IMG/VR virus record: IMGVR_UViG_3300037606_000117
Location: 1 to 24,141 of that record
Source: a virus
Reading direction: 5' to 3' (one strand)
Length of the DNA: 24,141 bases
Part shown: in pieces, positions 420 to 21,192 of the stretch
How positions within the stretch are numbered: position 1 is the stretch's first letter
Layout of the letters: each line of letters begins with the position of its first letter
The notes under the pieces: generated by a model
Told to the model about the DNA's origin: nothing
Databases searched by the model: none
What the model saw: only the letters and a program-made list of their open reading frames with translations
Program-made: the position numbers and the translations under genes

Positions 420-429
420 AGGTGCGCTC

Positions 430-467
430 CTAGAAACTGAGAGGCAGTTTCACCCCTCAGTTTCTAG
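430..467 (-). other. Perfect 12-bp inverted repeat (hairpin) between the giant virion gene and the tail fibre gene
   Basis: CTAGAAACTGAG (430-441) is repeated inverted as CTCAGTTTCTAG (456-467) around a 14-nt loop. The element GAAACTG also recurs inside the loop. On the coding strand the stem ends exactly at the first G of the GGAG ribosome-binding site of the tail fibre gene. No U-run follows, so it is not a textbook intrinsic terminator. It could mark an mRNA processing site, limit translation of the fibre, or protect the 3' end of the upstream message. Confidence 0.7.
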
Positions 468-478
468 TTACGTGCACC
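468..478 (-). repeat. Junction element GGTGCACGTAA, copy 1
   Basis: An exact 11-bp copy on the coding strand. It starts 5 nt after the stop of the giant internal virion gene and ends 48 nt before the TTG start of the tail fibre gene. The hairpin at 430-467 follows it immediately. See the finding on the five copies. Confidence 0.85.
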
Positions 479-483
479 CCGTC

Positions 484-3400
484 CTACTTGGGGTCTTGGT
501 GCCCGGTCAGCAACGCGCCGGGGTTCTGCGTCTTGCCGTCGCGCAAGGCCTCGATGCCGTTGACCGTGCGGTTAACCTGGGCCGCTGGCAGTCGCAACAG
601 TTGGCCCGACGTGTTGATCACGGCCTTGCGCAGCCCCGGGTCCAGCTCACCTTGGTGCGATTGCTTGCCCAGCTTGGCCAGATCCGCCAGCATGCGCACC
701 CCAGCGGGGCCGCTGTAGTCGGCGCCGAACTGCGCGGTACCGGTGGCCGCCTGCACGGCGCCCGTGACTTCGCGCACCCCGACCAAGAGCCCGAACAGGA
801 AACTCAGGTGTTCCCCTATCAGCTTTTTGATAATGTGCTCGGGGTCATCCCAGTCGCCCGAATCGCCAGGGGTCAGTGCCTCCTTCAAAGCCGCGCCCAA
901 TATGACGGGGATCGAGTACAGCAAAAGATAGTCCGCTGCGAGCTTGGCCTTACTCTCGTGGTTCATGGTTTTCTGCACGCCCAGGTTCAGTGCGGTATTG
1001 AAAAAGCTGTAGAACGTGGTGAAGAGCTTGAGGCCGGGGCCGCCGCGCTCGATAGCACTCTGGTCCTTTACGCCGCCACTGCCCTGCGCGTCAATCACGG
1101 CCTGGTCAGACAGCGCCACGGAACGACTTTCGTCATTGCCTTCGGCGATGGCCTTCTCATAGGCACCCCACCAGGTGGGAATATCCACCGCTTGCTGGCA
1201 GCGCATCATGAGGAAGTAGGCCGACGCGTCCACCGCTTCGCGCACCTTGGTGCGGCCCTTCACCTGACTGCGCACCTCGTTAATCTCGCGCAGCCGGGTG
1301 AGCGCACGGGTGCGCATGAAATCAGATTTTTCATTGATGGCGTCCGCAGTCTCCAAAGGGGAGCCGATGAACTTGGCCACGCCCTTGCCCACCCACTTGG
1401 GGCCAATGCGCGCCATGGACTGGGTGATGCCCAAGGGCTGCATCAAGGCAGACATTACATTCCAGCCCAGCCCCGACACGCTCACGCCTTGCCGGATGTA
1501 GGCCAGGGCCTTCTCGCCCGCGCCCTGCGCACCCCGGTCGCCTTCGGCGTTGTCTTCCAGCCAGCGCTTGAATTGCTGGTGGGCATCCGGCCCGTACTTG
1601 CTGCGCATGGCTTCGGCTATGCGCTTGTTGCGCACCAGCTTATTGGCATCAATCAGCCATTCGTGCCACGTCAAATCGTGGATCACTTCCTGCACGCCGT
1701 TGTAAATGCCATCCAGCGAGTACAGCAATGGGCGCCCGTTGACCTCTTCCACCCGGCTCTTGGTGAACGACCGGCGCGTGGTGGCGCTAGTGTAGGCCCC
1801 GGCGAGCTGACGTTTGGCGGCTTCCGCGTCCTCGTGGGATTCGGCCCGTTCGCTGGCACGCGGATCGTACTTGATGGGATAGTACCCGCCGCGCAACGTG
1901 CCGTAAGGGGTTTGCACGGGTGTGGGCTCCACCCAGTTGGGCTCTTTCCCGTAGACCCGTTTTTCCTTCTCACCAATGGCAGGCCGGTAACTCTCGAAGT
2001 GGTCCCACACGGCTTGCACAAACTGCCAATCCGCTGGCGACAACGAATTCAGCACCGGCTGCAATTGCTGAATGGACCAGCCCTCGCCACCCAGCAAGCG
2101 CTGGGTGTTGCTCTCGTTGCCTAGGTTCAGGGCGATGGCCAGCTTGGCCTCTTTGTTGAGCGAGCGGTTAATCGACTTGAAGAACTCACCCTTGCCGCCC
2201 ATCTTGCCCTCTTTGAGGACCGGCGCCACCAGCTTGGCCAACTCTTTGGTGGCCTTCTCGCGCATGACCACCTCGTTGTCGCCCGCCATGTTGGCCGTAC
2301 GAATCAGATATTCCCACACCGGGCCGCCGTCCTTGCCGCCGTCCATGACGCGCGCCCACGTCGCCGCCTTGATGTGTTCCGCCCAGAAGTTTTTAAGGCC
2401 CACCAGCTTGGCTCCCAGCACGGTGTTGGGGGTGCGGGTGTCAGCTTTGCGGGTGCCCGCTTCCAGGTTGATGCTGGTGGTAATTTCGTCCACCGCTGCC
2501 CCGAAGTCGCGGTTGGCCTGCGCAGTCAACAGCCGGTTCTTGAGACGCCCAAGGTGTTCAATTTGCTTGATGGTATCGCGTAGGCCCCGCACTTCCTCGA
2601 CGGTCATTTCCTTGAACGACTTGCGGTTCGCTTCCTGCAGCAACTCAGGCGGAATATCGGGCTCCATGCCCTGATCCGCTTGGTCCTGCACCCACTCCAC
2701 CAGGCTTTTGCGCTTGTCGATGGTTTTCAGGCTGGTGCTGGTGCGCAGGTCAAAACGCTCCAGCAAGGCGTGGATCTGGTCCGCGTATTCGGGGTCCAGC
2801 GTCTTGCTGACCTTATCGAATTTCTTGAAGTATTCCACCGCCGACTTCACGTCTTCCTGCGCGGCATAGGCCGCTTTGGTGGCGTACAGGTTGATCAATT
2901 GATTGCGCTTGTGCATGGTGGCCTGGGCAATGTCGCCCACGGCTTTGGCCGCCGCCTTGGCAGAGCGCACCTCAGCCGCCGCGTACTGACCGGGCCGGAT
3001 GTCGCGCACCTTGAGCTTGGCAATGATTGCCGTGGCGTAGTCGCGCGCGGCTCGCGCCAGCACGTCCACCGTGTTCTTTTGCCCCGGCACCTTCTCGCGC
3101 ACGCTCATGGCCTTCTGCAAGGCCTTGAGCTCAGTGGCCACGAACTTGGCCCGCGCGTCGTTGTGGATGGCCGCGTCCGCTGCGCGCTCCAGTCCGGCCG
3201 GGGTGGCCAGGTCGCCATGCTCTTGCAGCATACGGGTGTCTACCATGCCCTCGATCACCGACTTGGGTGGCTCAGTCTCGGCCAGGGTCTTCACCAGCTC
3301 GTCGCCCGAACTGAATCCAAACAGCTCGCCCACCACGTCCGGGTTGAGCCCACCCTCGTCGCTGGTCATGCGCAACTCGGACAGCTTGCGCCACACAGCG

Positions 3401-7443: not shown

Positions 7444-9259
7444 GGGGCAATCCAGAAAGCGGGCTCACGCCCTTGAGATACAGACGGTTGAGGTTGGCCG
7501 TGGTGGGCGCGTAGTCCGCGTCACCCGTGGCCTTGTAGGCTTTTTGCATATCGGCCAAAAGCTGCGTCTTGCGGGCTGGTGGAATCACCACGTTGCCCGC
7601 GTCCGTTGGGCTCAGGGCTGCCGCAGGCTTGTCTGAATTCCAGAGCCAGCCGTTTACCGTGACGGTCTTGGCCGCTTCCGTGCGCACCAATTCGGACTTC
7701 TCTTCGGTGGTCAGCGGACGGCGCAAGCGCTGCGCTTCGGTTTGCAGCATGCCGTCCACCCGGGTCTTGAGGTTGCCCAGCATGGCCCTGGAGTCACTGG
7801 ACAACTTGCCATAGGGATCGATGTCCAGCGTGTCCTTGACAATGGCCTTGAACGCCGTGTCGTCGATGCGGGCCTGCAGCTTGGCGTCCTTGTTCTGTAG
7901 CAGGTCGAAGCGCTGCAGCAATTGCTGGGTGCCTTCAAACCCGTATTTGGTGCGCATAGCTTCCACCTCGGCGCGGGACTTGCCGGTGAGCACGTCCGGG
8001 TCGCTGTCATGCAGGTAGTCGCCGCTGTTGGTGAGCAAGGCCATGCGGTCCTTGCGCGTGAGCTCGCTCAGGGCCCGCGCCGAATCGGACGCGCCGCGCG
8101 ACGCCCGCGTGGCCGCTTCGCTTTCCAGCCCCTTGGCAATTTCGTGGCGCTTGGCTTCGGGCAAGGCCAGCCATGCGGGTGACGCCTGCACCCGGCTCAG
8201 GGGCATGCCGGAATCGATCAGCCCGTACACCTTGTTAATGCCCCCGGCGTTGAGTTCGCCCTGTTGCGCGTTGAACGTGGCGGCCCGGTCTTTCAGGCTT
8301 TTGAGCGCGGCGTCGCGCAGTTGGGGCTCGTTCGGGAATTTATCCCGCACGGCTTCTTCCATGTCGTAGATGCGCACGGGATCGTTGGCATCCTTGGGCG
8401 CCAGGGCCTCCCAAGTCTCATTGGCCGCACGGTCGCCGCGCACCAGCACGTCCACGCTCTTGACCTGCCCCGTGAGCTTGAGCAAAGCCGTATCGGTGAG
8501 CTCGCCGTTCTTCTTGGCAGTCTGCAAATAGACATCGGCATATTCGGTTTTACCTGCCTGCAGCGCCATGGAGATAACCGACTCGTGGCCCCGGCTCAGT
8601 TGCTCCGTCGTCGCGGCCTGGATCATCGCAGCAGACCAACCGCGTAATCGGCCCTCTTCGGCAAGAGATGCCTTGATGGCGTTGCGGGATTGCTCCACTG
8701 CGTCGGCATCCCCCCACGCCAGGCCCATTTGGTCCTGCGCTAATTTGGTGGTGCCTTGCTGCACACTTACCGAATGGTCGGCGTATTCCTTGGCAACGTG
8801 CTGGGTCAGCCCGCTCTGGAATTGCTGCACGAGCTGGTTGGACTGCTGGTTGAACGCCAACCGCTGCGCTTCGTTACCCAGCCCCCGCGCGATGCCGTCA
8901 ACCTGTTCTTTGAGCTTGTCACCATAGGACTGGCCCAGCGACTTGCCGTCCTGGTCAGGATCCAGCGCTTCGGCCCCGCGTTTCATGGTGTAGCCGTCTT
9001 TCTGGTCGTAGGTCAACTTCAGGCGCGCCGCCATGGCTTTGTTCATGGCATCGGTCACGCGCACCTGGTTGGCTTGATCCGCCGCCGCCAGCGCAATCTT
9101 GCCCGCCACGTCGCCCGCCCGGCCTAGGGCTTGGCCGAACTGGCTGGCCTGGTCTGCGGCTATCGCACCCGGGGCTGGGCCGCTGGGTGCCTGAATCTGT
9201 ACGTTGGGCTGGCCAGAAACTTGCGTCTGGAAATTGTCATAGGTTGGGACGCGTGGCAT
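7433..9259 (-). CDS. Internal virion protein, T7 gp15-like position, 608 aa
   Basis: The protein is long, almost entirely helical and rich in alanine, glutamine and charged residues, with no membrane segment. It starts MPRVPTYDNFQTQV, a common opening for podovirus internal core proteins, followed by an alanine-rich helix (near residues 35-75). It has the length and position expected of the T7 gp15-like ejectosome tube protein, between the gp14-like and gp16-like genes. In T7, gp14, gp15 and gp16 leave the capsid with the DNA and form a conduit across the cell envelope; I infer the same role here. Its ATG shares one base with the TAA of the preceding gene, and its 3' end overlaps the giant gene by 11 bp, which suggests coupled translation. 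The assignment rests on gene order, size and composition more than on a conserved motif. Confidence 0.7.
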   Translation of the reverse strand: MPRVPTYDNFQTQVSGQPNVQIQAPSGPAPGAIAADQASQFGQALGRAGDVAGKIALAAADQANQVRVTDAMNKAMAARLKLTYDQKDGYTMKRGAEALDPDQDGKSLGQSYGDKLKEQVDGIARGLGNEAQRLAFNQQSNQLVQQFQSGLTQHVAKEYADHSVSVQQGTTKLAQDQMGLAWGDADAVEQSRNAIKASLAEEGRLRGWSAAMIQAATTEQLSRGHESVISMALQAGKTEYADVYLQTAKKNGELTDTALLKLTGQVKSVDVLVRGDRAANETWEALAPKDANDPVRIYDMEEAVRDKFPNEPQLRDAALKSLKDRAATFNAQQGELNAGGINKVYGLIDSGMPLSRVQASPAWLALPEAKRHEIAKGLESEAATRASRGASDSARALSELTRKDRMALLTNSGDYLHDSDPDVLTGKSRAEVEAMRTKYGFEGTQQLLQRFDLLQNKDAKLQARIDDTAFKAIVKDTLDIDPYGKLSSDSRAMLGNLKTRVDGMLQTEAQRLRRPLTTEEKSELVRTEAAKTVTVNGWLWNSDKPAAALSPTDAGNVVIPPARKTQLLADMQKAYKATGDADYAPTTANLNRLYLKGVSPLSGLPHAK

Positions 9260-9801: not shown

Positions 9802-9812
9802 TGTTTAGCCCA

Positions 9813-9833
9813 ATAGTAAGAGAACCTCACTAT
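9813..9833 (-). other. Small hairpin in the leader of the gp14-like gene
   Basis: ATAGTGAG and CTTACTAT on the coding strand can pair (with one G-U pair) around a short loop. The hairpin sits between copy 2 of the junction element and the start codon at 9801. It has no U-run. It occupies the same relative place as the stronger hairpin after copy 1. Confidence 0.4.
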
Positions 9834-9850
9834 CGGGGCGCCACCGTGGG

Positions 9851-9861
9851 TTACGTGCACC
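9851..9861 (-). repeat. Junction element GGTGCACGTAA, copy 2
   Basis: An exact copy. Its final TAA is the stop codon of the gp13-like gene, so the last codons of that gene lie inside the element. It ends 49 nt before the ATG of the gp14-like gene. Confidence 0.85.
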
Positions 9862-10321: not shown

Positions 10322-12353
10322 CCAGCGCGGCCTCGACGGTCATGGACACCAGCGTCAAGGGCAAGGGGTCCGATTGCCGCACGAATATCTGGCCGCCTTG
10401 CTGCCAGCTTGGCTCCAGCGAAATTTCCAGCTCGTCGGTTTTGAGCGCGGGCGCGCTGCCGTAGACTTCGGTGGTGCGCTGTTTGAACTGCACCAGCCGG
10501 TCCAGACTAGGCCCTGCAAACACGCCCGACGACTTGTAGACGCGCAGCCACACCTTATTGATGTTCTTGAGCCTGCCCTGCCCGTAACTGGCGTCAATCT
10601 GCGCGGACATCGGCAAGGTTTGCACATCGGCCGTGATGGGCAGGCCTACCTGCACCTTGCTACAGGCTTGCTCCAGCGTGATGCTCCCACCCGTCACGAC
10701 CTTTTGCGGGAACACCGCGCCGTCACCCAGCACGCTCACGGTCTTGCCTTCCAGCCAGGTCAGGCCGCTGATAACTGTGGCAGGCACGCCGGTATAGGTG
10801 GCGCCACAATCCACAAAAAAGGCATCGGCCTGCGTGGCAAACAGCCGAGTGCGCAGGCGCTCGATATAGCGGGTGTAGCTGCCATTGATCAAACGCCGAA
10901 CCACGACATACAGCGCATCCTCGCCGCCTTCGGCCACCACACAGCACGACTCGAACGCACCATCGGTATCGTGCTGGTGCCATGCACCTACCTGTTGCTC
11001 TGGCACGTAGGTCAGGCCCAACAACTTGCCGCCTGAGCTCACGGCCCATACCAGCGGTTGCGGGGCCTTGGAATAGGACATATCCGTGATGTCCATACCA
11101 TCAAACAGGTGCGGCGCGCGCAGGCTCAGGTCGCCCGTGATGTAGCCCCCGGCCTGGTAGTTGTATGCCATCTCGCGCATGTGGCCCCCGCGCGCGGCTG
11201 CGTACAGAATGTTGTTGTTGACGATCAAGGGCTGTGCGTTGTTGGCCCCTATGTAGCTTTGGGGCTTGACGCTGATGCTGGTGGGCGTGATGGCATCGCT
11301 GTTGATGCTGGTGACGCGCCATTCGGCGGCGCCGGTCAGCAGCACCAGATTGGCCAAAGGAACGATATGGCGGATGGTGTTGGCCTCGCGCGCGGCCACC
11401 CGAATGTTAATACTGTCGTCGTCCCGCGTGGGGATGGAATACGTCAGGTTGGATTCGGTACCCGAACGCGTCAGGCGCAGGTTTTGCGGCTCACTGATCG
11501 AGCCCGCGAAGCACCGCCGTTGCTCGAAGTACGACACCGCGCCGGGGTACAGCCCCACACCGCTGAACGGGTTGTTCGCGATGGGTGGCGTCTTGCCCAG
11601 ATTGGCCGTGATGTTGTCGTCCTTGAATGTCAGCCCGTCGGTTTGCCCGATATAGCCATACAGGCCGTTGCTTTGCTTGTAGACGTTGTACCGGGCCGCG
11701 CCCGTGCTGGCCCACGCAACCGTCATGAACTGGCCGGTGACCAGCACGTTGCCGGTGCCGCTGCCCGCAGCGGACGCGGCTGACTCCTCGAGCCCGGTGC
11801 CGCCCACGCTGGTGACCACGTAGTTGTAAACCGTAGAGCCCGCACCCGTTGGGGTGACAGTGGTCGCGCCAGGGGTGCCCAGGCTGGACACAAAGCCGAT
11901 GGTCGTCAACGTCCAGTTCAGTGCACCCAGCCGTTTGAGCTCGCGCGGCGCATAGTTGGGGTGGCAGATAGTGAGAACGTCCGCTGACTGCACAAAATGC
12001 AGGTCGAACAGATCCGCCTCCAGGTAGGGCGTGGCCACCTCGTAGGGACTGGCCCCGTTGAGCAAGGTGGCACCCTGGGTGTGAAACCGGATCGAAGAGT
12101 CCCCGAATTCCAGCACCATGGTTTGCGTGGTGCTGTGGGTGAAGGGCAGCACGCGGGTTTTTTTGGCCGGGGTCTTGACCGTGTTCACGTAGGCAAAGCC
12201 TGCACGGTTCGCCACCGGGCCGTGGGGCAGCACCAGCATGTTGCGGCAAGTGGCCAGCCCCGTCTGGAATTTGGCGTCACCTATCTGGCCCCAGAATTCG
12301 GGGGTCACCTCGCCACCGGCAAAGGACATCGTGAGTTTGCGCAAGCCGCTCAT
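10314..12353 (-). CDS. Tail tubular protein B (tail nozzle, T7 gp12-like), 679 aa
   Basis: The open frame extends further upstream, but the real start is the ATG at 12353, whose ATGA overlaps the stop of tail tubular protein A. The protein then opens with MSGLRKLTMSFAGGEVTPEF and continues FQTGLATCRNMLVLPHGPVANRAGFAYV. This is the characteristic N-terminal pattern of T7 gp12-like nozzle proteins, in which the substrate-like G-E-xxP-x-x-x-R/G-D-xxKY signature is followed by CxNmxvxPxGgxxxRxGtxFv. Later blocks (VLEFGDSSIRF, SYFEQRRCFAGS, GAEWRV, EMAYNYQAGGYITGDLSL) agree with the family, and the length is usual for it. The protein forms the hexameric distal end of the short tail. Tail tubular A lies directly before it and the gp13-like gene overlaps its end by 8 bp. 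Confidence 0.9.
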   Translation of the reverse strand: MSGLRKLTMSFAGGEVTPEFWGQIGDAKFQTGLATCRNMLVLPHGPVANRAGFAYVNTVKTPAKKTRVLPFTHSTTQTMVLEFGDSSIRFHTQGATLLNGASPYEVATPYLEADLFDLHFVQSADVLTICHPNYAPRELKRLGALNWTLTTIGFVSSLGTPGATTVTPTGAGSTVYNYVVTSVGGTGLEESAASAAGSGTGNVLVTGQFMTVAWASTGAARYNVYKQSNGLYGYIGQTDGLTFKDDNITANLGKTPPIANNPFSGVGLYPGAVSYFEQRRCFAGSISEPQNLRLTRSGTESNLTYSIPTRDDDSINIRVAAREANTIRHIVPLANLVLLTGAAEWRVTSINSDAITPTSISVKPQSYIGANNAQPLIVNNNILYAAARGGHMREMAYNYQAGGYITGDLSLRAPHLFDGMDITDMSYSKAPQPLVWAVSSGGKLLGLTYVPEQQVGAWHQHDTDGAFESCCVVAEGGEDALYVVVRRLINGSYTRYIERLRTRLFATQADAFFVDCGATYTGVPATVISGLTWLEGKTVSVLGDGAVFPQKVVTGGSITLEQACSKVQVGLPITADVQTLPMSAQIDASYGQGRLKNINKVWLRVYKSSGVFAGPSLDRLVQFKQRTTEVYGSAPALKTDELEISLEPSWQQGGQIFVRQSDPLPLTLVSMTVEAALGG

Positions 12354-13006
12354 CGTGCATTCATCCAGCCAACTTGCTGGCGTGGCGCAGCGCGGCGTTG
12401 GGACGCGTCCGAATCGCTGGCCTTGCCTAGCCAATACACAAAGGTTTTGGTGCAGGCCTGGGCGGCCTGCATGCCCGCCTCGCCCTTGAGCACGGGCCCC
12501 GCCAGCTTGGACGCCAGCAACCAGGTCAGGGCCTCGGCGAACAGCGGGGTGAATTTTGACGCATCGCTGACCAACACGGTGTAGCGCAGCACGGCATTGG
12601 CCTGGTTGGTCAGGATGATGTCGTTGCCCGCGTCGTCGGTCTCGGGGCTGAATTCTTGCGGGGTGTACGCACCGCCGACCGTGTTGTCGTAGACGCTGGT
12701 CTTGGGGGACGCGCTGTAATCGTCCGACGCGTCGGGCGCCAGGATAGAAATCAGATTGACGGCGTTGCTGGGCAGGGCGTAGGCGTAAGCCCACGTGCTG
12801 GACGGGTTGGCCACGGCGGCCAGCGTGGTGCGCCGGGTGGCAAAGGCCCACGGATGCATTTCCAGCAAGGTGCCCAGCGCGGCGGAATAGAACCGGGCGC
12901 AATGTTCCGCCTGGGCGCTGCCTTCGGGCGGGTCGATGCTGGCCACGGTGGCGCTGTCGCCCAAGTGGCTCAAAGCCTGATTGCAAATATCAACAACGGA
13001 TGCCAA
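12350..13006 (-). CDS. Tail tubular protein A (adaptor/gatekeeper, T7 gp11-like), 218 aa
   Basis: The N-terminal pattern VVDICNQALSHLG, the block SAQAEHCARFYSAAL and then LLEMHPWAFATRRTTLA are the hallmarks of T7 gp11-like tail tubular A proteins. These form the dodecameric ring joining the portal to the nozzle. A longer frame exists up to 13039, but I place the start at TTG 13006: AGGAG lies 8 nt upstream of it and the longer version would begin inside the terminator stem. The resulting MASVVDICNQ fits the family. Its end overlaps tail tubular B by four bases (ATGA), as expected for translational coupling. The gene follows directly after an intrinsic terminator, so its expression may depend on read-through or on a separate promoter. 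Confidence 0.9.
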   Translation of the reverse strand: MASVVDICNQALSHLGDSATVASIDPPEGSAQAEHCARFYSAALGTLLEMHPWAFATRRTTLAAVANPSSTWAYAYALPSNAVNLISILAPDASDDYSASPKTSVYDNTVGGAYTPQEFSPETDDAGNDIILTNQANAVLRYTVLVSDASKFTPLFAEALTWLLASKLAGPVLKGEAGMQAAQACTKTFVYWLGKASDSDASQRRAAPRQQVGWMNAR

Positions 13007-13019
13007 TTTGGGTTCTCCT

Positions 13020-13047
13020 AAAAAGAAAAGGGGCACCAAGGCCCCTT
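13020..13047 (-). terminator. Strong intrinsic terminator between the head genes and the tail genes
   Basis: On the coding strand a 7-bp GC-rich stem, AAGGGGC/GCCCCTT with a six-base loop, is followed by TTCTTTTT. The hairpin lies 25 nt after the stop of the gene at 13072 and its U-run abuts the AGGAG of tail tubular A. It is the best-formed terminator in the window. Its place after the capsid genes recalls the T7 Tphi terminator after gene 10, which lowers tail-gene expression relative to capsid. Confidence 0.85.
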
Positions 13048-13071
13048 CTCACGCACAACGAGCCCGGGGGC

Positions 13072-13446
13072 TTAGACCAGGCTGGCCTTGTCGGTCTTGC
13101 CGGCCTTGGTCGCCGCAGCTGGGATGCCCTCGGGGAGCAGACGGGCGAAGGCTGCCGCCACGGCTTCGGCCACCGCCGTGCCGATCACCGTGGCCTGTTC
13201 GGCTTGGTTCTTGGCCAGCGCGACCGCGAAGGCAGCGGGGTCACCCACACCACTGGCTTGGTTCTCAGAAACCATTTTCTTGACGCGCGCGGCGTTGCTG
13301 TCCAGGTATTCCTGGTACTTGGCACGGCCTTCGTCGCAAAGGGGTTCGAGGTTCTCGGCGGGCAGGCCGTTGTATTCGATTTCGGCGCCAGCCTGGAACA
13401 GTTCGTTGCCAACGAGGGACAACTCTTTAACGCGGTATTTGGGCAT
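13072..13446 (-). CDS. Conserved podovirus protein of unknown function, 124 aa
   Basis: I recognise this as a protein type seen beside the capsid genes of BPP-1-like phages but know no function for it. It starts MPKYRVKELSLVGNELFQAG, then has a short beta-rich part (EIEYNGLPAENLEPL), resembling a small SH3-like or gateway fold, followed by a charged helix (RAKYQEYLDSNAARVKK) and an alanine-rich tail. It has no signal peptide or membrane segment. A purine-rich GAAAGAAG lies just upstream of the ATG at 13446. It lies between the cement protein gene and tail tubular A and is the last gene before the strong terminator, which groups it with head morphogenesis. A head-completion or capsid-vertex role is possible but only inferred. 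Confidence 0.65.
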   Translation of the reverse strand: MPKYRVKELSLVGNELFQAGAEIEYNGLPAENLEPLCDEGRAKYQEYLDSNAARVKKMVSENQASGVGDPAAFAVALAKNQAEQATVIGTAVAEAVAAAFARLLPEGIPAAATKAGKTDKASLV

Positions 13447-13455
13447 GGTCTTCTT

Positions 13456-13539
13456 TCAGTGGTCGGGGAAGAGGTTGTTGAATAGGGCTTTGAAGAGACC
13501 CGCCAGGGTGCGCATCGTGGCGAGGCGTGGCGGGCCCAT
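13456..13539 (-). CDS. Tentative 27-aa ORF in the gap after the cement gene
   Basis: An ATG at 13539, four bases after the cement gene's stop, opens a 27-codon frame that fills almost the whole gap to the next gene. The last 19 residues after a second ATG (MRTLAGLFKALFNNLFPDH) would form an amphipathic helix with aromatic residues on one side. There is no convincing ribosome-binding site. Inverted CCCGCCA/TGGCGGG arms lie in the same stretch, so the sequence may instead act as a structured leader. Low confidence. Confidence 0.2.
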   Translation of the reverse strand: MGPPRLATMRTLAGLFKALFNNLFPDH

Positions 13540-13543
13540 TCGA

Positions 13544-14038
13544 TTAGCTGACTGCGAAACCAGACTTGTAGGTTATGTTCCGCAAGTCTTGCACGCTCTT
13601 CACGACAGCAGCAACGACCGACATCGAGGCCAGCGTGGTGCCGCCAGAAGCCACATAGCGCACACCCACATAGCGCTTGGGCGTGTAAGGCGCGGCGCGG
13701 TCATAGCGCAAGGGCACCAACGTGCCGGGCACCAGCGTAGCTATCGGGAAAGCGTCGGTCTGGTTGATTACCTGCACGTTGCTGGTCAGCGCCGCGTCAT
13801 CGGCCTGAACCAACTGGAACTGCACCGCAGTCACCGCAGTTGGGGCCACCAGCACGCTGATGCTGATGTTCAGCGGTTCACCGGCGCCTATGTTACCCGC
13901 CTGGTTGCCGCCGATAGAAAGCGGGCCCAAGTCCATGGTGTTGGTGCTCAGCGTGCTGTTGGCGACGAGCAACTGACCGGTAAGGACACCGGCAGCGGAG
14001 ACCGCCCCGGAGAGAAATGCAAAGTTGTCGAGGATCAT
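13544..14038 (-). CDS. Capsid cement (decoration) protein, Bbp16-like, 164 aa
   Basis: The pattern MILDNFAFLSGA, then a TMDLGPLSIGG block, GAGEPLNISISVLV, a run of beta strands, FPIATLVPGTLVPLRYDR, and YTPKRYVGVRYVASGG matches the Bbp16 family of capsid cement proteins from BPP-1-type phages. In BPP-1 this protein forms a second layer that stabilises the HK97-fold major capsid protein lattice. The sequence is almost all beta and has no membrane segment. AAGGAAATATC lies immediately before the ATG at 14038, nearly identical to the leader of the major capsid protein, so both are probably translated strongly. It directly follows the capsid gene. Confidence 0.8.
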   Translation of the reverse strand: MILDNFAFLSGAVSAAGVLTGQLLVANSTLSTNTMDLGPLSIGGNQAGNIGAGEPLNISISVLVAPTAVTAVQFQLVQADDAALTSNVQVINQTDAFPIATLVPGTLVPLRYDRAAPYTPKRYVGVRYVASGGTTLASMSVVAAVVKSVQDLRNITYKSGFAVS

Positions 14039-14070
14039 GATATTTCCTTGAAGTTAAGAGGGCGCGGATA

Positions 14071-14087
14071 AGGGGCCTAAGCCCCCT
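14071..14087 (-). other. GC-rich hairpin between major capsid and cement genes
   Basis: AGGGG and CCCCT arms around a seven-base loop lie 7 nt after the capsid gene stop. Only a short UUA follows, so it is at best a weak terminator or attenuator. It could also stabilise the 3' end of the capsid message. Confidence 0.4.
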
Positions 14088-14093
14088 ATTCCG

Positions 14094-15113
14094 TTAAACC
14101 ACGCGGCTTTCGGTGTTCAAAAGCTGGTCCACCTTGCGCAGGGGAACACCCAAGAAGCGGGTCAGGCTGTACGGCGTGCCGAACTGCGTGAGCGCTTGCT
14201 CGATGCTCAGTGCCGCGTTGGACTTGTTCAATGCCGCCACGCGCAGCATCGAGTACACGGTGCGGTTGGCGTAGAAGCAAGGGCGCCCCATCGACAGATT
14301 GGGCACGCGGTCCATGGCGCGAGACATCAAGTTGATGATCTGCGTGGCAGCGGTGGCGGACTGGGTGGCGGACTGGCCAATCAAGTCGGTGACGTTGATG
14401 TTGGCAATACGCACGATGTAGCGCCAGTCTTTGACGGCCACGCCGTTTTTCCACTGGTACAGCGCACGCATGGCCTGGAAGAAGTTGTTGTTCGCGTCAG
14501 GAACAGACTCTTCACCCAGATCCTGGTGCATCAAACCGGCCTTGGTGCCCTTCGGGAACGGGCAGAACACGGTGTTTTCACCCCACACGGCCAGATAAAT
14601 GGACGCGTTGTTCGAGCCGGTACCGCCAGCGTCCAGAATGTTCTGGCCGTTGCCCGCGCCCAGCGAGCTGTAACGGGTCTGCAGACCCAAGAACTGGCGG
14701 GGGTCAGTTGCTGGGTTGCCGTAGAACATTGCGCCGGCCATGGTTTGGTTCATGGCTTCGATGAACGCCTGGTCTTCAGACAAACGGAACGCGGCCGTGT
14801 TGCCATTGAGCTTGGCCAGTTCCACGTCGATGTGGCTGCGCGCTTCCAGGATGCCACATGCCTCGTCAATCTGGGCCGTGGTGGACTTGGAAGTCGGCAC
14901 ACCCTGGTTGATCATGCGGTAGAAAACTTGGGGCAAGCCGGTGCGGATCGTCAGACGGTGGCCGGTGGGCAAGTTGCCTTCCATGAATACCGCGTCTTCC
15001 AGAATCTCATTGGTCTGGGAGAGCAGTTCGGCGACCTTGGGCACTTGGCCGTCCGGGTCGAGTCGTTTGGCCCAGTCTGCAAGAGTGAGGGCGCCGGCGG
15101 ATAGTGTTGCCAT
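14094..15113 (-). CDS. Major capsid protein, BPP-1-like HK97 fold, 339 aa
   Basis: The protein starts MATLSAGALTLADWAKRLDPDG, followed by EILEDAVFMEGNLPTGHR, RTGLPQVFYRMINQGV, DQAFIEAMNQTMAGAMFYGN and GLQTRYSSL. This set is typical of the BPP-1-like (Bbp17) major capsid family, which has a circularly permuted HK97 fold. The length agrees with the family, and there is no sign of an N-terminal scaffold domain; scaffold is encoded separately just upstream. It forms the icosahedral shell. The ATG at 15113 has AAGGA 8 nt upstream. The scaffold precedes it and the cement protein follows, as in other phages of this type. Function is secure; the fold is from family knowledge. Confidence 0.93.
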   Translation of the reverse strand: MATLSAGALTLADWAKRLDPDGQVPKVAELLSQTNEILEDAVFMEGNLPTGHRLTIRTGLPQVFYRMINQGVPTSKSTTAQIDEACGILEARSHIDVELAKLNGNTAAFRLSEDQAFIEAMNQTMAGAMFYGNPATDPRQFLGLQTRYSSLGAGNGQNILDAGGTGSNNASIYLAVWGENTVFCPFPKGTKAGLMHQDLGEESVPDANNNFFQAMRALYQWKNGVAVKDWRYIVRIANINVTDLIGQSATQSATAATQIINLMSRAMDRVPNLSMGRPCFYANRTVYSMLRVAALNKSNAALSIEQALTQFGTPYSLTRFLGVPLRKVDQLLNTESRVV

Positions 15114-15125
15114 GATATTTTTCCT

Positions 15126-15833
15126 TTATGACTGATTGGGGTAGAGAGCCTTGGCCGTGCTTTGCGATGCCGTTGCTGGCCCCGCGCCGCCCGTGACCAT
15201 GCGGTCCTCACTGATTGCCTTGCCTGCCCGGACCATGAACCGGATCACTTCCGGGTGGTTGCCTAGGCGGGAATCGTTCAACAGGGTGCGCAGTTCAGGT
15301 GTGCCGAAAGCGTCAAGCGCTTTCTTCGCGGTCGTCAGGCTGTCGGTAAGCTTGTCTCCCCCGTATTCCTTGTCGTCCGTTGCCGATGCCGCCCATTCGG
15401 CCGCAGCCTGCTGGATTACATCGGCCTGCTTGGCTTCCCACTTCTGCGCGAGCTTCACGCCGATGTCGGACACCTTCTGCGCCTCCTCTTGGGACAGCTT
15501 GAGTTCTTTGGCAAGGCCTTCAAACTCACCCAGAACTTCCTTGTCCATGTTGACCCCTTCGGGCTCCACGAACTCGTATTTCTCGGGCACCACCTTCTCA
15601 GGTGCTGCAGCGGTCTCGTCCGTCTTGACTTCGGGGGTGTCCGTGGTCTTGTCGGTAGAGGCCTGCTGGGTTGCATCAACCTTCACTTCCGGCGTTGTGG
15701 CGGCCGGGGTGCTGGTTGACGCGCTTGAACTGGCGGCTGGCGTGGTTTGTGCGCCGTCAGTCATAAGTGTTGCGGAGCCACCACCGGATGCGGCAGGCTC
15801 TGCGTTCTGTAACCGATAGTGTAGAAACTTCAT
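15126..15833 (-). CDS. Capsid scaffolding protein, 235 aa
   Basis: The protein has the two-part composition of podovirus scaffolds. Residues about 15-90 form a disordered stretch of Ala, Ser, Thr, Pro and acidic residues. A helical part follows (LGEFEGLAKELKLSQEEAQK and AQKWEAKQADVIQQAAAEW), and the end carries the conserved scaffold block TPELRTLLNDSRLGNHPEVIRF. The scaffold directs assembly of the procapsid and leaves before DNA packaging. Its ATG overlaps the stop of the Bbp19-like gene by four bases (ATGA), and the major capsid gene follows 12 nt later. I see no protease motif. Confidence 0.88.
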   Translation of the reverse strand: MKFLHYRLQNAEPAASGGGSATLMTDGAQTTPAASSSASTSTPAATTPEVKVDATQQASTDKTTDTPEVKTDETAAAPEKVVPEKYEFVEPEGVNMDKEVLGEFEGLAKELKLSQEEAQKVSDIGVKLAQKWEAKQADVIQQAAAEWAASATDDKEYGGDKLTDSLTTAKKALDAFGTPELRTLLNDSRLGNHPEVIRFMVRAGKAISEDRMVTGGAGPATASQSTAKALYPNQS

Positions 15834-16138
15834 TCGTTGGCTTCTTTCATCATGGCCGGGTAAAGGTCAGGGCATGCGGAGTGGATCAATGCCAGCATCC
15901 GCAAACCCTCGTTACGTGCGCCTTCGGCGAAGGCCATGGTCATGCTGTTGGTGTTGAACGAGAGGCGGTACACCCCCGCCCGTTCCAGCACACGCCACAA
16001 AATCCGCCGTCCGCGCTTGCTTCCCATCAGCCACTTGACATCCTCCACCTCGCTCTGGTCAGCCAGCTTGTCCCGCGTGGTGCGGTCTTTGCGGGCCTTG
16101 TCCTGGGCTTCGGTATCGAGGGGGTCGTAGTTGCTCAT
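15830..16138 (-). CDS. Bbp19-family phage protein, 102 aa
   Basis: The central pattern EVEDVKWLMGSKRGRRILWR, then LERAGVYRLSFNTNSMTMAF and EGARNEGLRMLALIH, matches the Bbp19 family named after Bordetella phage BPP-1. Family members lie between portal and scaffold or capsid genes; their function is not established. The protein is helical and soluble. Copy 3 of the GGTGCACGTAA element ends 28 nt before its ATG at 16138, and there is no clear ribosome-binding site in that leader. Its end overlaps the scaffold gene by four bases. Confidence 0.8.
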   Translation of the reverse strand: MSNYDPLDTEAQDKARKDRTTRDKLADQSEVEDVKWLMGSKRGRRILWRVLERAGVYRLSFNTNSMTMAFAEGARNEGLRMLALIHSACPDLYPAMMKEANE

Positions 16139-16166
16139 GGGTGCAGATTAATTTCGCGCGCAGGTC

Positions 16167-16177
16167 TTACGTGCACC
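16167..16177 (-). repeat. Junction element GGTGCACGTAA, copy 3
   Basis: An exact copy, beginning 2 nt after the stop of the small capsid-associated gene and ending 28 nt before the ATG of the Bbp19-family gene. Confidence 0.85.
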
Positions 16178-16179
16178 AC

Positions 16180-16491
16180 CTAGTCGCCGTACAGCATCGA
16201 GGCCGTGTCCTTGCCGCCCCCGTTGACAATTTCCATATCAGTGAGCTGCAGCGTCAGGCTGATGTCGGGCGCGTTGCCCTCGGTCTTCGCCTCGTCGGTC
16301 TTTTCGGCTTCGGCCGTCACCCGCGTGGCCACAGCCCGCACCTTGAGCATGTAGACCGTGCCAGGGGCTGGCGCCGTGGTAATGCCCAGCGCCTCGCACT
16401 GGTCATCGCTCAGATAGATGGTGGGGCTGGCGTTGTAATCGCCAGGGCCGACAGTTGCAGAGTCGTCGGACTTGATATTCATGTTGACCAT
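16180..16491 (-). CDS. Small capsid-associated protein, possibly a capsid staple/stabilising protein, 103 aa
   Basis: A short, acidic, beta-rich protein with the pattern IYLSDDQCEALGITTAPAPG, then VYMLKVRAVATRVTAEAE and a final ISLTLQLTDMEI strand. I recognise this as a common small virion protein encoded between portal and capsid genes, sometimes annotated as a capsid staple or stabilising protein. The exact role is uncertain. AAGGA lies 6 nt before the ATG at 16491 and overlaps the portal stop region. An in-frame ATG at 16482 is a second possible start. Copy 3 of the junction element lies 2 nt after its stop. Confidence 0.55.
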   Translation of the reverse strand: MVNMNIKSDDSATVGPGDYNASPTIYLSDDQCEALGITTAPAPGTVYMLKVRAVATRVTAEAEKTDEAKTEGNAPDISLTLQLTDMEIVNGGGKDTASMLYGD

Positions 16492-16500
16492 TGCGTGTCC

Positions 16501-18168
16501 TTAGGTGTAGCCAGAAAACGCCTGCATCACATCGTTGCCCGCGTTGCCGCTGGAGGTTTGCACCGTGCCCAACTTTTGCGCAGCGCTTGCGGCTTGTTCC
16601 GCCTGGGCCATTTGTTGCGCTTTGGCCTGGGCCTGCGCGCGGGCGTTGCGGATGAGCGCTACCTTATCGGACGGCACCACGAACTCGGGGTCCACGCCCA
16701 GCATGTCGCTGTACTTGTCGGCCCAGGTGTCGCTGTCAAACTTGTCCAGCACGTCGGGCTTGAACGAGGCCACCTGTCCGAGGTTGCCCACGAACCGGTC
16801 TATGCCGTTGGTGGCAATGGCGCGCTGGGCCTGGGCCAGCATCGACACGTAGGTGACGTTCAGGTCCATGCCGTGCAGCTCAGGGGGTGGGGGTGGCACG
16901 ATGCCAGCAGCCAGCATATGCTCGAACGTGGTTTCGATCAACGGGTCCAGCATCTCGGAGTGCAAACGCTCCACCACGGGTCCCAGCATGAGCATCTTTT
17001 CCTCGTGGCGTTCGGCCACCTCGGTGGCGGTCATGGCGCTGTTGGTGCTGTTGGCCAGCATCAAGAACAGATCCGCGCTGAACGCGCCCCGGATGCGCTC
17101 GCGCACGTCCTGAATGTCACCCAGCAAGTGGTTCAAGTCCAGCCGGGTATCGAACGCGGTACGAATGCCGCCAGCAGGCCCTGCCTGGTCCACAAAGGTA
17201 ATGCCACCCGGCAGGGTGTCCACATCGCGGCCCTTCATGCTGACAGGCACCTGCAGCGGGGGCTTGGTCATGTAGTCAATGCCCTGGGCCTTGCGCATCT
17301 GCTCGTGCTGCAATTGCTTGATGTCGCCCAGCGCGTCCATGCCCGGGCTGTTGCCGTAGATGTCGCCACCCGACGTGGCCCAACGCGCAGCGATTGCGGG
17401 GAAATTCTTGAAACCTGATTCGCTCAGGAACTTGTCTTTCGCGCCATTGAGCTCGAAGTAAACCGACTTCCACGGCATGTTCAGACTGTCGCGCTTGGTG
17501 CTATCGCGGTCCGCACGGGGCTCGATGGCGTGCACGATGGTGATCCACTGGTCCAGACTGCCCCGGTCCCACAGGTTTTGCACGTTGGTGCTGCATTTGT
17601 CACGCCCGAATTCGGTGACCATCTCGCCCACGGTCTTTTGGAATTCGCGGTACAGGGTGACCACCTCGCCCTTCCAGTTCTGGGCAATACAAAACTCGCC
17701 CGTGGTCAGCGGGTACATGTGGATGACGTTCTGGTAGTCCGGCATCACGATGCTGGCCGCCGTGCCGAACGCACCCAGCTCTTCGTACATCGAGTGCAGC
17801 GCGCGGTAGGTGTTGGACTTGGCAAAGATGTCCAGCATCAAGCGGGTGACTTGCGAGAGCCACAACTTTACAGCGGGTGACTTGTTCAGGCCCGCGTCAG
17901 GCGTGGCCAGCCGGAACCAGGGCCGCGCGGGGCTGGTCATGCCCGCCATCATCCCGGCTGCCAGCACGCGCAGCGACTTGGTGCCGGTGTTGTCGTAAAT
18001 GTTGTTGTGGCGCTTTTGGCCCCGGTTGCGGTCCTGCAAAAAGAACCGGCCCGAACGGGGCAGCACAAAGTCGCTGATCTCAGACCAATGGCTCCACCAG
18101 GTCGAACGCTCGGACTTGAGCGTGGCCCACCGGGTATAGAGCCGGTCGCGGGGAGCCTGGTCAGCCAT
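16501..18168 (-). CDS. Portal protein (head-tail connector, T7 gp8-like), 555 aa
   Basis: The block LYTRWATLKSERSTWWSHW (near residue 10), then LPRSGRF, NIYDNTGTKSLRVLAAGMM, GMTSPARPWFRL and KLWLSQV match the podovirus head-to-tail connector family. Length is usual (about 500-560). The dodecameric portal occupies one capsid vertex, is the conduit for packaging and ejection, and docks the terminase and the tail adaptor. A proline run (PPPPPELHG, near residues 427-435) precedes the C-terminal helical barrel, and the end is glutamine/alanine-rich (AQAQAKAQQMAQAEQAA). The ATG at 18168 lies 3 nt after the stop of the preceding small gene, with a weak ribosome-binding site, which suggests coupling. 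Confidence 0.93.
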   Translation of the reverse strand: MADQAPRDRLYTRWATLKSERSTWWSHWSEISDFVLPRSGRFFLQDRNRGQKRHNNIYDNTGTKSLRVLAAGMMAGMTSPARPWFRLATPDAGLNKSPAVKLWLSQVTRLMLDIFAKSNTYRALHSMYEELGAFGTAASIVMPDYQNVIHMYPLTTGEFCIAQNWKGEVVTLYREFQKTVGEMVTEFGRDKCSTNVQNLWDRGSLDQWITIVHAIEPRADRDSTKRDSLNMPWKSVYFELNGAKDKFLSESGFKNFPAIAARWATSGGDIYGNSPGMDALGDIKQLQHEQMRKAQGIDYMTKPPLQVPVSMKGRDVDTLPGGITFVDQAGPAGGIRTAFDTRLDLNHLLGDIQDVRERIRGAFSADLFLMLANSTNSAMTATEVAERHEEKMLMLGPVVERLHSEMLDPLIETTFEHMLAAGIVPPPPPELHGMDLNVTYVSMLAQAQRAIATNGIDRFVGNLGQVASFKPDVLDKFDSDTWADKYSDMLGVDPEFVVPSDKVALIRNARAQAQAKAQQMAQAEQAASAAQKLGTVQTSSGNAGNDVMQAFSGYT

Positions 18169-18171
18169 CGC

Positions 18172-18483
18172 TTAACCGCCCAGCAGCGTGGTCTTGCCCA
18201 ACAGCAAGGTCTTGGGGTCCACACCTTGCGGCCCGGTCAGCATGGTGCCGCTGACGCCGCCCTTGGCCCCGGCCGCGTTGGCCGCATCCAGGCCCATGAC
18301 GTCCGGCTGCCTGCCGTTGGCTCTGTTGTTAGCCTGGTCAGCCTGGTCGGCCTGTTTGGTGGCGGCGGCCGTCGCCTTCTCGTTGGCATCGGCTTGCATG
18401 CTGGCGGCTTTGCGCTGCTCAGATGCTTGATTTATCGTGGCTGCTCCAAAAATAGCAACAGCAGCGCTGATTGGATCACACAT
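18172..18483 (-). CDS. Small virion-associated protein with MCDP start, 103 aa
   Basis: The protein opens MCDPISAAVAIFGAATI, an MCxP tetrapeptide followed by a hydrophobic helix. It continues with an alanine/glutamine-rich helix (near residues 20-55) and ends GVDPKTLLLGKTTLLGG. This C-terminal pattern recurs in small podovirus proteins encoded between terminase and portal, which I would compare with the T7 gp6.7 and gp7.3 class of minor virion or tail-assembly proteins. That role is an inference. The opening closely resembles that of the gp14-like protein at 9259-9801. Copy 4 of the junction element ends 52 nt before its ATG, inside the large terminase gene. AAGG lies 7 nt before the start. 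Confidence 0.6.
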   Translation of the reverse strand: MCDPISAAVAIFGAATINQASEQRKAASMQADANEKATAAATKQADQADQANNRANGRQPDVMGLDAANAAGAKGGVSGTMLTGPQGVDPKTLLLGKTTLLGG

Positions 18484-18486
18484 GAT

Positions 18487-20079
18487 TTAGCCTTGGTTTA
18501 ATGATTCGTAAGGATCGTGCCAGCCCCGCGCCCCGTTACGTGCACCACTGCTCTCTTCCTTTGGAAGTTGGTACTCAGGCACCGGGTAGGCAAAGGTCAG
18601 CGCCAGCGCGTCGCCATCGTCGGGGCTGGCCAGCCCGCGCGCCTTCATGTGCTCTTTGCTTTCGAGCTGGATCTGGTCCGCCGCCGTGTACTGGTACTCG
18701 ACGCTGGTCAGGTCCGTGGTCATGGCCTCGTCTTTGGTCAGGCAGCCAATAGCCAGCCATTCCTTGGCCCGCGCCCACATTTCCGCGCGCTTGTTTAGGT
18801 ACTTCTTGGCATCGTCCGCCTTGCCGCCGAACTGCACTTCCACCACATCATGGTTGAGCTGGCGCAGCCGGTCCACCACACCGCCACCCACGCCGCCGCC
18901 ATCAACGAACACCACTGCTGTCATGCCCATGGACTTGATGTAATCGACATGCTCTGCCACCTTGCTGGCCAGTTGCATGGTGTCGAGCTCGCGGTACCGC
19001 TTGACCGGAATGCCCACGCCGTCACGGCCTACGCGGGTGCGTATGACAGACTGGTCATCGCCAAAGCGCGCCACGTCCACGCCCACGGCAGCCGTGCGGC
19101 CAATGAAGCGCTCGGCCGTGGGTTTGCGGTTCATGGCCTGGTCCACCAGCTCGCGCGGGATGAACTGCAGGCTGGACGCATTGGGGAACACACCACGCAC
19201 CCGGACCTTCACAAAGTCACTGTCCTCGCCGTAGTCGCTGACCCAATCGTTGAGCATTTTTTTGTTGGTGATAGCCACCTTGCGGCTGTCGATCTGCTTG
19301 GTGATCCAGCGGTGGCGGCTTTTGCCAAAGCATTCGGCGAACGCGCCCGTGTTGCGGGTTGGGTTGCCAAAGACAAAGTGCATGGGGGAGCCGTCCGTCT
19401 TGCCGCCTTCAGCCACTTCCCATATTTTGCTGGGTATGGCACTGGCCTCATCGAACAGATACCACGGCGTGGAATTGGCCGCGTGCAAGCCCGCAAACGA
19501 CTCGCTGTTCTCCTCGCGGCTGGTTTGGGCGTCTACCCTCCAACTATCGGGATATTGCTTGTGCACGAGGCGCATAGCCCCCTTGCCGGTGGTGATGGCG
19601 AACCAGTGCTGGTTCACGGCCTTGGACAACCACGAGGCCACGCCCGCCCACGTCTTGCTGGAGAGCTGTTCCGCCGTGTTGGCCGTCACCACGCCCTTGC
19701 TGAACGGCCGGGTGGACATCACCCACAGCACCAGCCACGCAGCCATGGCCGACTTGCCAATGCCGTGGCCCGAGCTGATGGCGAACTGGATGGGGTCCAC
19801 CGCATGGACACCATCAAAGCCGCGCAGCTTGACCTGTTCGCCCAGCTCGCTCAGGAAGTCGCAGGCCCACAGGTCCGGGCCGTACTCGCAGCCATAGAGC
19901 AAATCGTAGGGGCTGGCCAGCTTCACAAGTTGCAGCTTGGTGTCGGTATCCCACGGAAAAATATACATGACGAACCCAAGCGGGTCGTCGTAGAACCGGG
20001 CGATGTCCCGGGCCAGCTCGGCATCGAGGTTAACTTGCGATGCCACTGCGCTTACGCCCGGATTCGAGGATCGTGGCAA
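18487..20079 (-). CDS. terL: Terminase large subunit (packaging ATPase and nuclease), 530 aa
   Basis: The packaging motor. The ATPase carries Walker A SGHGIGKS (residues 103-110), Walker B YLFDEAS (207-213) and the block GNPTRNTGAF (238-247). The nuclease carries GVDVARFGDDQS with D335, FVDGGGVGGG with D393, and the C-terminal SPDDGDALALTFA with D490. ARFYDDPLGFVMYIFPW near residue 27 is the usual family opening. Numbering is from TTG 20079, preceded by GGGGCGG. GTG 20046 would give 519 residues and shorten the overlap with the small subunit gene from 50 to 17 bp; both are plausible. Near the C-terminus, copy 4 of the GGTGCACGTAA element is read as Gly-Ala-Arg-Asn (512-515). The protein docks on the portal and cuts and translocates DNA. 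Confidence 0.95.
   Translation of the reverse strand: MPRSSNPGVSAVASQVNLDAELARDIARFYDDPLGFVMYIFPWDTDTKLQLVKLASPYDLLYGCEYGPDLWACDFLSELGEQVKLRGFDGVHAVDPIQFAISSGHGIGKSAMAAWLVLWVMSTRPFSKGVVTANTAEQLSSKTWAGVASWLSKAVNQHWFAITTGKGAMRLVHKQYPDSWRVDAQTSREENSESFAGLHAANSTPWYLFDEASAIPSKIWEVAEGGKTDGSPMHFVFGNPTRNTGAFAECFGKSRHRWITKQIDSRKVAITNKKMLNDWVSDYGEDSDFVKVRVRGVFPNASSLQFIPRELVDQAMNRKPTAERFIGRTAAVGVDVARFGDDQSVIRTRVGRDGVGIPVKRYRELDTMQLASKVAEHVDYIKSMGMTAVVFVDGGGVGGGVVDRLRQLNHDVVEVQFGGKADDAKKYLNKRAEMWARAKEWLAIGCLTKDEAMTTDLTSVEYQYTAADQIQLESKEHMKARGLASPDDGDALALTFAYPVPEYQLPKEESSGARNGARGWHDPYESLNQG
18536..18546 (-). repeat. Junction element GGTGCACGTAA, copy 4
   Basis: An exact copy inside the 3' end of the large terminase gene, 46 nt before its stop, in the variable tail after the last nuclease motif. 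It ends 52 nt before the ATG of the MCDP protein gene. Confidence 0.85.
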
Positions 20080-20470
20080 TGTCCACCGCCCCGCTGTGCT
20101 CCACCTGTTGCTTATCGCCGTACACCTTGGGCAGCATCTTGGCCAGCATCCACTTGCGCGTGTCCACCTGCAGGCGCCGGTGCTCGATCATGTCGCCCTC
20201 TGTGATCTCCATCCCAGTGGCCTTGCTGACGCTTTTAGTGCCGGTGACGGGGGTGTCGGCAATTTGGAGTATTTCCTCCGCGAGCCGCAGATAGCCCACT
20301 TCTCTCGCGCGGGCATACTGCGCAGCGAACCCGTTAACGTCATCCAGTACCCAAAAGCGCACGGCTGACTCGCTTGGCATGTGTAGGTCGCCGCAAATTC
20401 CGCGCAGCGATTCACCATCACTCAGGCGTTGACAGATTTCATCGGCAATTTCAGGGGAGTAGCGAACCAT
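20030..20470 (-). CDS. terS: Terminase small subunit (DNA recognition), 146 aa
   Basis: The open frame continues upstream of the true start, but the protein-like part begins at ATG 20470: MVRYSPEIADEICQRLSDGE. The N-terminal region SLRGICGDLHMPSESAVRFW is a helix-turn-helix, followed by AAQYARAREVGYLRLAEEIL, a helical oligomerisation part. This is the layout of small terminases of the Sf6-like group, which bind the packaging site and hand DNA to the large subunit. GAGGGGG lies 15 nt upstream of the ATG, rather far for a ribosome-binding site. Copy 5 of the junction element ends 28 nt before the start. The large subunit gene overlaps its end. Confidence 0.88.
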   Translation of the reverse strand: MVRYSPEIADEICQRLSDGESLRGICGDLHMPSESAVRFWVLDDVNGFAAQYARAREVGYLRLAEEILQIADTPVTGTKSVSKATGMEITEGDMIEHRRLQVDTRKWMLAKMLPKVYGDKQQVEHSGAVDIATILESGRKRSGIAS

Positions 20471-20490
20471 GCCCGCACTGTGCAACCCCC

Positions 20491-20730
20491 TCAAGCCCTT
20501 ACGTGCACCCTGCGCCAGTCGGTCGCCACCTGGCCGCGCCACCGGCCTTTGACGATGTAACGCACCAGGCTCTTGCTCACCTCGAACTTCGCGGCCAGTC
20601 TGCGATAGCCCCACCCCTCGCCATGCAAGGCCAGCAGCAGCTCGACATCGGTGTCAGTCAGCTTGGCGTTGTGGTGGCTGTCACCCACCCGGCGACCGAT
20701 GTCATTCACCGCGACGGTTCTGGTGTTCAT
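20491..20730 (-). CDS. Small helix-turn-helix DNA-binding protein, 79 aa
   Basis: The segment KLTDTDVELLLALHGEGWG, then YRRLAAKFEVSKSLVRYIV (about residues 23-61) has the spacing of a helix-turn-helix in which SKSLVRYIV is the recognition helix. A basic end follows. Such small proteins occur just before terminase genes in many phages and may regulate late genes or help recognise the packaging site; neither is shown here. AAGGAA lies 9 nt before the ATG at 20730, a good ribosome-binding site. The last codons include copy 5 of the GGTGCACGTAA element. It is the first gene of the leftward virion block and is divergent from the lipoprotein gene, with only 38 bp between their starts. Confidence 0.75.
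   Translation of the reverse strand: MNTRTVAVNDIGRRVGDSHHNAKLTDTDVELLLALHGEGWGYRRLAAKFEVSKSLVRYIVKGRWRGQVATDWRRVHVRA
20499..20509 (-). repeat. Junction element GGTGCACGTAA, copy 5
   Basis: An exact copy inside the last codons of the HTH gene, 5 nt before its stop. It ends 28 nt before the ATG of the small terminase gene, the same spacing as copy 3. Confidence 0.85.
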
Positions 20731-20768
20731 AATCGGATTCCTTCAACAGAAAATTCAAAGGGCTGAAA
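20731..20768. other. Short divergent junction between the HTH gene and the lipoprotein gene
   Basis: Only 38 bp separate the two start codons. The two ribosome-binding sites (AAGGAA leftward, AAAGGG rightward) take up much of this space. A promoter for either gene would have to overlap the other gene's coding region. I see no convincing -10/-35 pair. Confidence 0.4.
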
Positions 20769-21101: not shown

Positions 21102-21148
21102 ATTCACCTCTTTGTAAAAACTTGCGCGTTCACCTAGACAAACTCGAA

Positions 21149-21163
21149 CACGCAATAAATTAC
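21149..21163 (+). repeat. 15-bp direct repeat CACGCAATAAATTAC, left copy
   Basis: Identical to 21314-21328, 165 bp away in the same orientation. The pair flanks the palindromic block. It is AT-rich compared with the surroundings. Confidence 0.8.
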
Positions 21164-21192
21164 AAGAACCAGCAGGACAATCCCCGTCTCTA

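Follow-up and report, generated by a model that had tools for sequence, protein, structure and literature searches.

In Gram-positive phages, late activators of the RinA/ArpU type are encoded by a small helix-turn-helix (HTH) gene located just before terS and drive the packaging and virion genes, and the late promoters of phage T4 use the phage sigma factor gp55. At the middle promoters of T4, the MotA box replaces the -35 ahead of a sigma70 -10, by sigma appropriation (PMC7403470), and in the late T4 genes e, soc and I-TevI, RNA from read-through folds into an inhibitory hairpin, which promoter-initiated RNA is unable to form (PMC2988022). Repeated asymmetric sequences have also been described in mycobacteriophages: the stoperators of cluster A, such as those of L5, occur in a single orientation at short gene junctions (PMC9283540), and the start-associated sequences of cluster K, which contain AGGAG, lie 3-7 bp before start codons, in the position of a ribosome-binding site (PMC3203893).

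The viral DNA analyzed here (the window: 24,141 nt of the IMG/VR record IMGVR_UViG_3300037606_000117, positions 1 to 24,141, to which the count of five refers) carries five copies of an 11-mer, GGTGCACGTAA. On sequence grounds we read each copy as the box occupying the -35 region of a late promoter with a sigma70 -10, served by a phage activator that would most likely belong to the Bbp27 family; we give this reading a probability of about 0.8. The likeness to the T4 middle promoters lies in a putative phage-protein box standing in place of the -35 before a sigma70 -10, whereas the box, the spacing, the late virion genes and the predicted leaderless starts are different. By position and proposed role, the small HTH gene beside terS recalls the RinA/ArpU activators, although several dispersed promoters are found here instead of one, and the L5 stoperators share with our boxes the repetition of an asymmetric site, in one orientation, at gene junctions, but not the fixed -10 partner or the small number of sites.

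Boxes and -10 elements in the window

The scan of the window gave five exact matches to GGTGCACGTAA, all on the minus strand, that is, the coding strand (Table 1); the number expected from dinucleotide shuffles was 0.02, and no shuffle reached five. The original prediction of five exact copies in one orientation was correct in all coordinates and in the coding strand, as were its distances from box to start codon (28 nt for terS, 52 nt for the gp14-like gene gp14a, 28 nt for the Bbp19-like gene, 49 nt for MCNP and 48 nt for the tail fibre). The one-mismatch search returned GGCGCACGTAA at 15912-15922 (-), within the Bbp19-like gene and with CTGGCA at spacer 16; it was rejected as a promoter and, since the -10 partner is absent at that spacer, left out of the site count.

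The layout is rigid: all five boxes are followed, after exactly 16 nt, by a sigma70-type -10 (xAxxxT), for which the chance probability is about 4e-8. A scan of positions 9700-21400 for the TTGACA/TATAAT sigma70 consensus found none of the four sites covered by that range. Because the -10 is fixed at spacer 16 and the consensus scan found none of these four sites, the box is predicted to take the place of the -35, spanning about -39 to -29; this is the layout expected of an activator-dependent sigma70 promoter of a phage.

Table 1. Putative late promoter elements and candidate activator gene in the window
Feature	Positions	Strand	Remarks
Box GGTGCACGTAA, putative terS promoter	20499..20509	-	exact copy
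-10 CACAGT of terS	20477..20482	-	16 nt past box; ATG 6 nt on (20470-20468); predicted leaderless
Box GGTGCACGTAA, putative promoter of gp14-like gene 18172-18483 and portal operon	18536..18546	-	inside TerL end
-10 CACGAT of gp14-like gene	18514..18519	-	ATG 30 nt on (18483), SD-like AAGG; predicted leadered
Box GGTGCACGTAA, putative promoter of Bbp19-like/scaffold/capsid operon	16167..16177	-	exact copy
-10 TAATCT of Bbp19-like gene	16145..16150	-	ATG 6 nt on (16138-16136); predicted leaderless
Box GGTGCACGTAA, putative promoter of T7-gp14-family gene 9259-9801 (MCNP)	9851..9861	-	exact copy
-10 GATAGT of MCNP gene	9829..9834	-	in hairpin 5' arm CCCGATAGTGAG/CTTACTATTGGG; ATG 27 nt on (9801)
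Box GGTGCACGTAA, putative tail-fibre promoter	468..478	-	exact copy
-10 GAAACT of tail fibre	446..451	-	at loop of long hairpin (16-17 pairs); TTG 26 nt on (419-417)
79-aa HTH protein, BPP-1 Bbp27 family, proposed activator	20491..20730	-	gene just before terS

According to the mechanism that we propose, the RNA polymerase of the host, carrying the housekeeping sigma, would recognise the xAxxxT -10 lying 16 nt past the box, and a phage activator on the 11-bp site would substitute for the missing canonical -35. Each promoter would head one set of virion genes (terS/TerL; gp14-like/portal; Bbp19-like/scaffold/capsid; gp14-like/internal virion proteins; tail fibre). From this layout we infer activation and the use of sigma70, together with the exact start sites and leaderless translation.

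Elsewhere in the window, the stretch 21120-21330, after the primase gene, is apparently non-coding and contains AATTTATTGCGTG twice, along with numerous TGTCCGG/CCGGACA words; it is possible that it represents an iteron or origin region.

Concerted variation of the box among relatives

Viral contigs were searched with TerL and the capsid protein, which yielded relatives with a capsid identity of up to 97%. In several of them the locus harbors three to four exact copies of GGTGCACGTAA, confined to the coding strand, and in others three to four copies of another word, uniform within the genome (GGTGCGCGTAA in L132-L134, GGTGTACCTAT in L103-L105). The variants that are constant per genome comprise GGTGCACGTAA, GGTGCGCGTAA, CGTATACGTAC, GGTGTACCTAT and GGTGCCCGTGC, and the first two are found in close relatives with a 94% identical capsid. 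Whole contigs of 27-42 kb mostly carry about five copies each, on a single strand and at equivalent junctions; the check on close relatives, by which the original prediction could have fallen, thus found the element retained. Since the boxes are uniform within a genome and specific to it, they would be sites read by a trans factor particular to each phage.

A gapped EM model of the region upstream of the Bbp19-like gene (82 unique sequences) consists of the box, a 16-nt spacer, a hexamer whose second base is A and whose sixth is T (each 0.99), a gap of 6 or 7 nt, and the start codon; of the 82 sequences, about 60 fit it, 59 of them with spacer 16. Because the model might itself impose this pattern, copies outside the EM set were tested, using the own 9-mer of each of 92 unique genomes (BPP-1 included) and excluding the site that had defined it. 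This yielded 129 recurrences on the coding strand versus one on the opposite strand, and 91% of these independent copies had xAxxxT at spacer 16, versus 0-9% at the other tested offsets. Scanning viral contigs for the exact pattern with the 28-nt spacing gave 88 matches, all single copies, which we took as chance, and megablast of the whole window against phages gave weak matches to the BPP-1 group only.

In BPP-1 itself, GGTGCCCGTGC occurs exactly four times, always on the coding strand, upstream of terS, bbp24, bbp19 and bbp9, with the -10 elements AAAACT, TACTGT, TAGAGT and TAGCCT, respectively, at spacer 16; the fourth box thereby precedes bbp9, mtd, avd and brt. Within 26250-26318 of that genome (L210, NC_005357), the box at 26284-26294 and its AAAACT lead to an internal ATG (ATGAAAAACGCC) of bbp26 (terS), and because of their position the annotated start at 26318 is probably wrong, a leaderless start at the internal ATG being predicted instead. 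The VR2 of bbp36 (33230-33552, minus strand) contains 14 repeats of GGTGGCCGTGC, with a 24-bp period and one mismatch from the box, a resemblance that is likely coincidental.

Four copies of GGTACCCGTA[AT], each with a -10, were found in Limnohabitans phage DC33; this phage (PQ492659, L212) is filed under Inoviridae, and it has the capsid protein and the putative late promoters of this podovirus group. Caulobacter phage Jess A has boxes that mostly lack the -10 at spacer 16. The repeat TGTTCACATT of phage zth2-2 was rejected as a box, its copies being mostly without a -10 and most of them lying in one stretch.

Two classes of starts and the tail-fibre hairpin

The start codon is located either 6-7 nt past the -10 (terS and the Bbp19-like gene) or about 23-30 nt past it (the other genes). 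The same division holds over 220 sites: 132 have an ATG or GTG 5-8 nt past the -10, with an SD in 1% of cases in a class where the -10 fills much of the SD window, and 87 have a start farther downstream, with a maximum at 23-27 nt; an SD is present in 66% of the latter, a rate somewhat inflated by the favouring of SD-bearing start candidates. Transcription usually starts about 7 nt downstream of the -10, and for this reason the 5-8 nt class is predicted to be leaderless; the terS and Bbp19-like mRNAs thus seem to begin on the start codon, and the gp14a, MCNP and tail-fibre transcripts would have a leader of about 20-24 nt.

The two spacing classes of the original prediction exist, but they would reflect leaderless and leadered transcripts rather than a helical phase of about two turns. 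The analogy that it drew with the start-associated sequences of cluster K is weak: a repeated asymmetric sequence ahead of starts is common to both, but the boxes lie 28-52 nt from the starts, upstream of the predicted transcription start, and not 3-7 bp before them with an SD core.

The -10 of the tail-fibre promoter sits at the loop of a long hairpin in most relatives. The stem enclosing it has on average 11.5 pairs at ten tail-fibre promoters versus 6.3 at the 220 other sites, and eight of the ten stems have a shuffle p <= 0.043 (mononucleotide shuffles, no multiple-test correction). The stem sequences vary between most genomes, with their complementarity kept (window 419-478 (-); L310-L321). 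This is the promoter-in-hairpin geometry of the late promoters of T4 e, soc and I-TevI, by analogy with which we infer the function of the hairpin: read-through RNA would be locked for translation, or terminated, and RNA started at the tail-fibre promoter would be without the 5' arm. The -10 differs from that of the T4 late promoters, and BPP-1 adds a terminator-like U tract past its tail-fibre hairpin (L210 near 6175).

The candidate activator and competing readings

The trans factor is likely a 79-aa HTH protein whose gene lies immediately ahead of terS, and BPP-1 Bbp27 is a 51% relative of this protein. When the loci were limited to those reaching 7.5 kb or more upstream of Bbp19, box and HTH gene occurred together in 55 cases, the box without the gene in none, the gene without a scored Bbp19 box in 13 and neither in 21 (Fisher 7e-12); several of those 13 loci carry their own repeated box elsewhere.

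Weighted per-column mutual information was then computed over 61 genomes, with 1,460 columns from eight proteins. For box base 6, the top of all the columns was HTH column 61 (residue 58, in the recognition helix; Tyr58 in the window), with a z of 8.2 versus 5.7 for the runner-up. The residue-base pairs were Asp/G in 15/15 and Asn/A in 5/5 (cluster-level Fisher 1.2e-4), and Lys at this residue goes mostly with C or A; L251 provides one more Asp-G pair, and L306 is an exception to the rule, having Asp with C at base 6. For box base 11, an Arg in the N-terminal arm of the HTH protein ranks first, tied with a capsid column, and at other positions columns from unrelated proteins rank above the HTH ones. 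Coarser tests on 38 genomes, by windows and by pair correlation, were discarded, being dominated by phylogeny, with portal windows at the top and the HTH protein not singled out. As the null shuffles ignore phylogeny, we regard the covariation as strong support, not proof, that the HTH protein reads the box.

In the AlphaFold model (pLDDT 82.5), the protein has three helices, with residue 58 in the third, and its closest folds include the DNA-binding domains of Hin, Tn3 resolvase and Tc3, at a Z of about 5 (best 5.6), the aligned structures also including sigma region 4 domains at a Z of about 4. The predicted HTH fold is a common one, has no decisive relative and is silent on activation. Upstream of the HTH gene, on the opposite strand, a 110-aa ORF (20769-21101 (+)) matches BPP-1 bbp28 in position. 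We tentatively extend our reading to the idea, which we find possible rather than probable, that a family of 60-110 aa proteins consisting of the DNA-binding domain only, that of Bbp27, might replace sigma region 4 at the late -35, its promoters being placed to give leaderless capsid and packaging mRNAs and a hairpin-locked tail-fibre mRNA (in BPP-1, also that of the DGR), so that a single type of promoter would serve two modes of translation.

It is unlikely, although the layout allows it, that an alternative sigma of the phage or the host, so far unrecognised, reads the box instead of a Bbp27-family protein: a bipartite -35/-10 with a long, specific -35 would fit, as would the sigma region 4 alignments, but a search of 18 relatives gave no Sigma70_r4 match over the cut-off, the box differs from phage to phage along with the HTH protein, and the -10 is sigma70-like. 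A phage T7-type single-subunit RNA polymerase gave no match in the 18 relatives, nor in the control genomes.

The single orientation, the asymmetry and the short gene junctions might also suggest stoperator or operator sites (PMC9283540), with the HTH protein acting as a repressor that blocks late transcription at initiation or elongation, in the manner of cluster A mycobacteriophages, and a box overlapping the -35 region is where a repressor would block too. However, a stoperator requires no fixed -10, whereas nearly all the boxes have one; there is no canonical -35 to hide, and BPP-1 has a separately annotated cI repressor. About five sites per genome, only before virion genes, contrast with the 26 of TipsytheTRex (PMC9283540) and with the more than 20 dispersed, mostly promoter-independent asymmetric sites that characterize such a system, and the L5-type repressor has 183 residues and a second, "stoperator" domain, versus 79 residues here. 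We therefore consider repression quite improbable.

An RNA-level element, for mRNA processing or translation control, is very improbable, even though the sites lie just ahead of start codons and hairpins occur at the tail-fibre and MCNP ones, since a -10 at a fixed distance is part of the pattern conserved in the DNA, the box would be upstream of the transcription start, and no structure is common to all sites. Least credible of all is a recombination linker or module boundary, which the placement at junctions between modules would suit, since linkers should match across recombining genomes and the boxes differ between close relatives while agreeing within a genome. The original prediction had listed both an mRNA processing site and a recombination linker; the -10 at a fixed distance, the concerted change per genome and the tracking of the HTH gene speak against the two. 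Its other suggestion, a regulatory element specific to the phage, for example a non-canonical promoter, is supported.

Our literature search found no description of the box or promoter, and an earlier mention is possible, for instance in the original BPP-1 genome paper or in the Caulobacter Rauchvirus paper. The reading of the boxes as activator-dependent late promoters would endow a broad group of podoviruses with a system for late transcription and a named candidate for its activator; the group includes BPP-1, the model phage for diversity-generating retroelements, whose fourth promoter, upstream of bbp9-mtd-avd-brt, would drive the retroelement genes. The pairs Asp/G, Asn/A and, mostly, Lys/C or A constitute a rule, open to testing, for how a DNA-binding protein of very small size recognises its site, and start calls based on the promoters would amend annotations such as that of BPP-1 bbp26. 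Finally, conserved leaderless starts of highly expressed virion genes would be unusual in phages of Proteobacteria.
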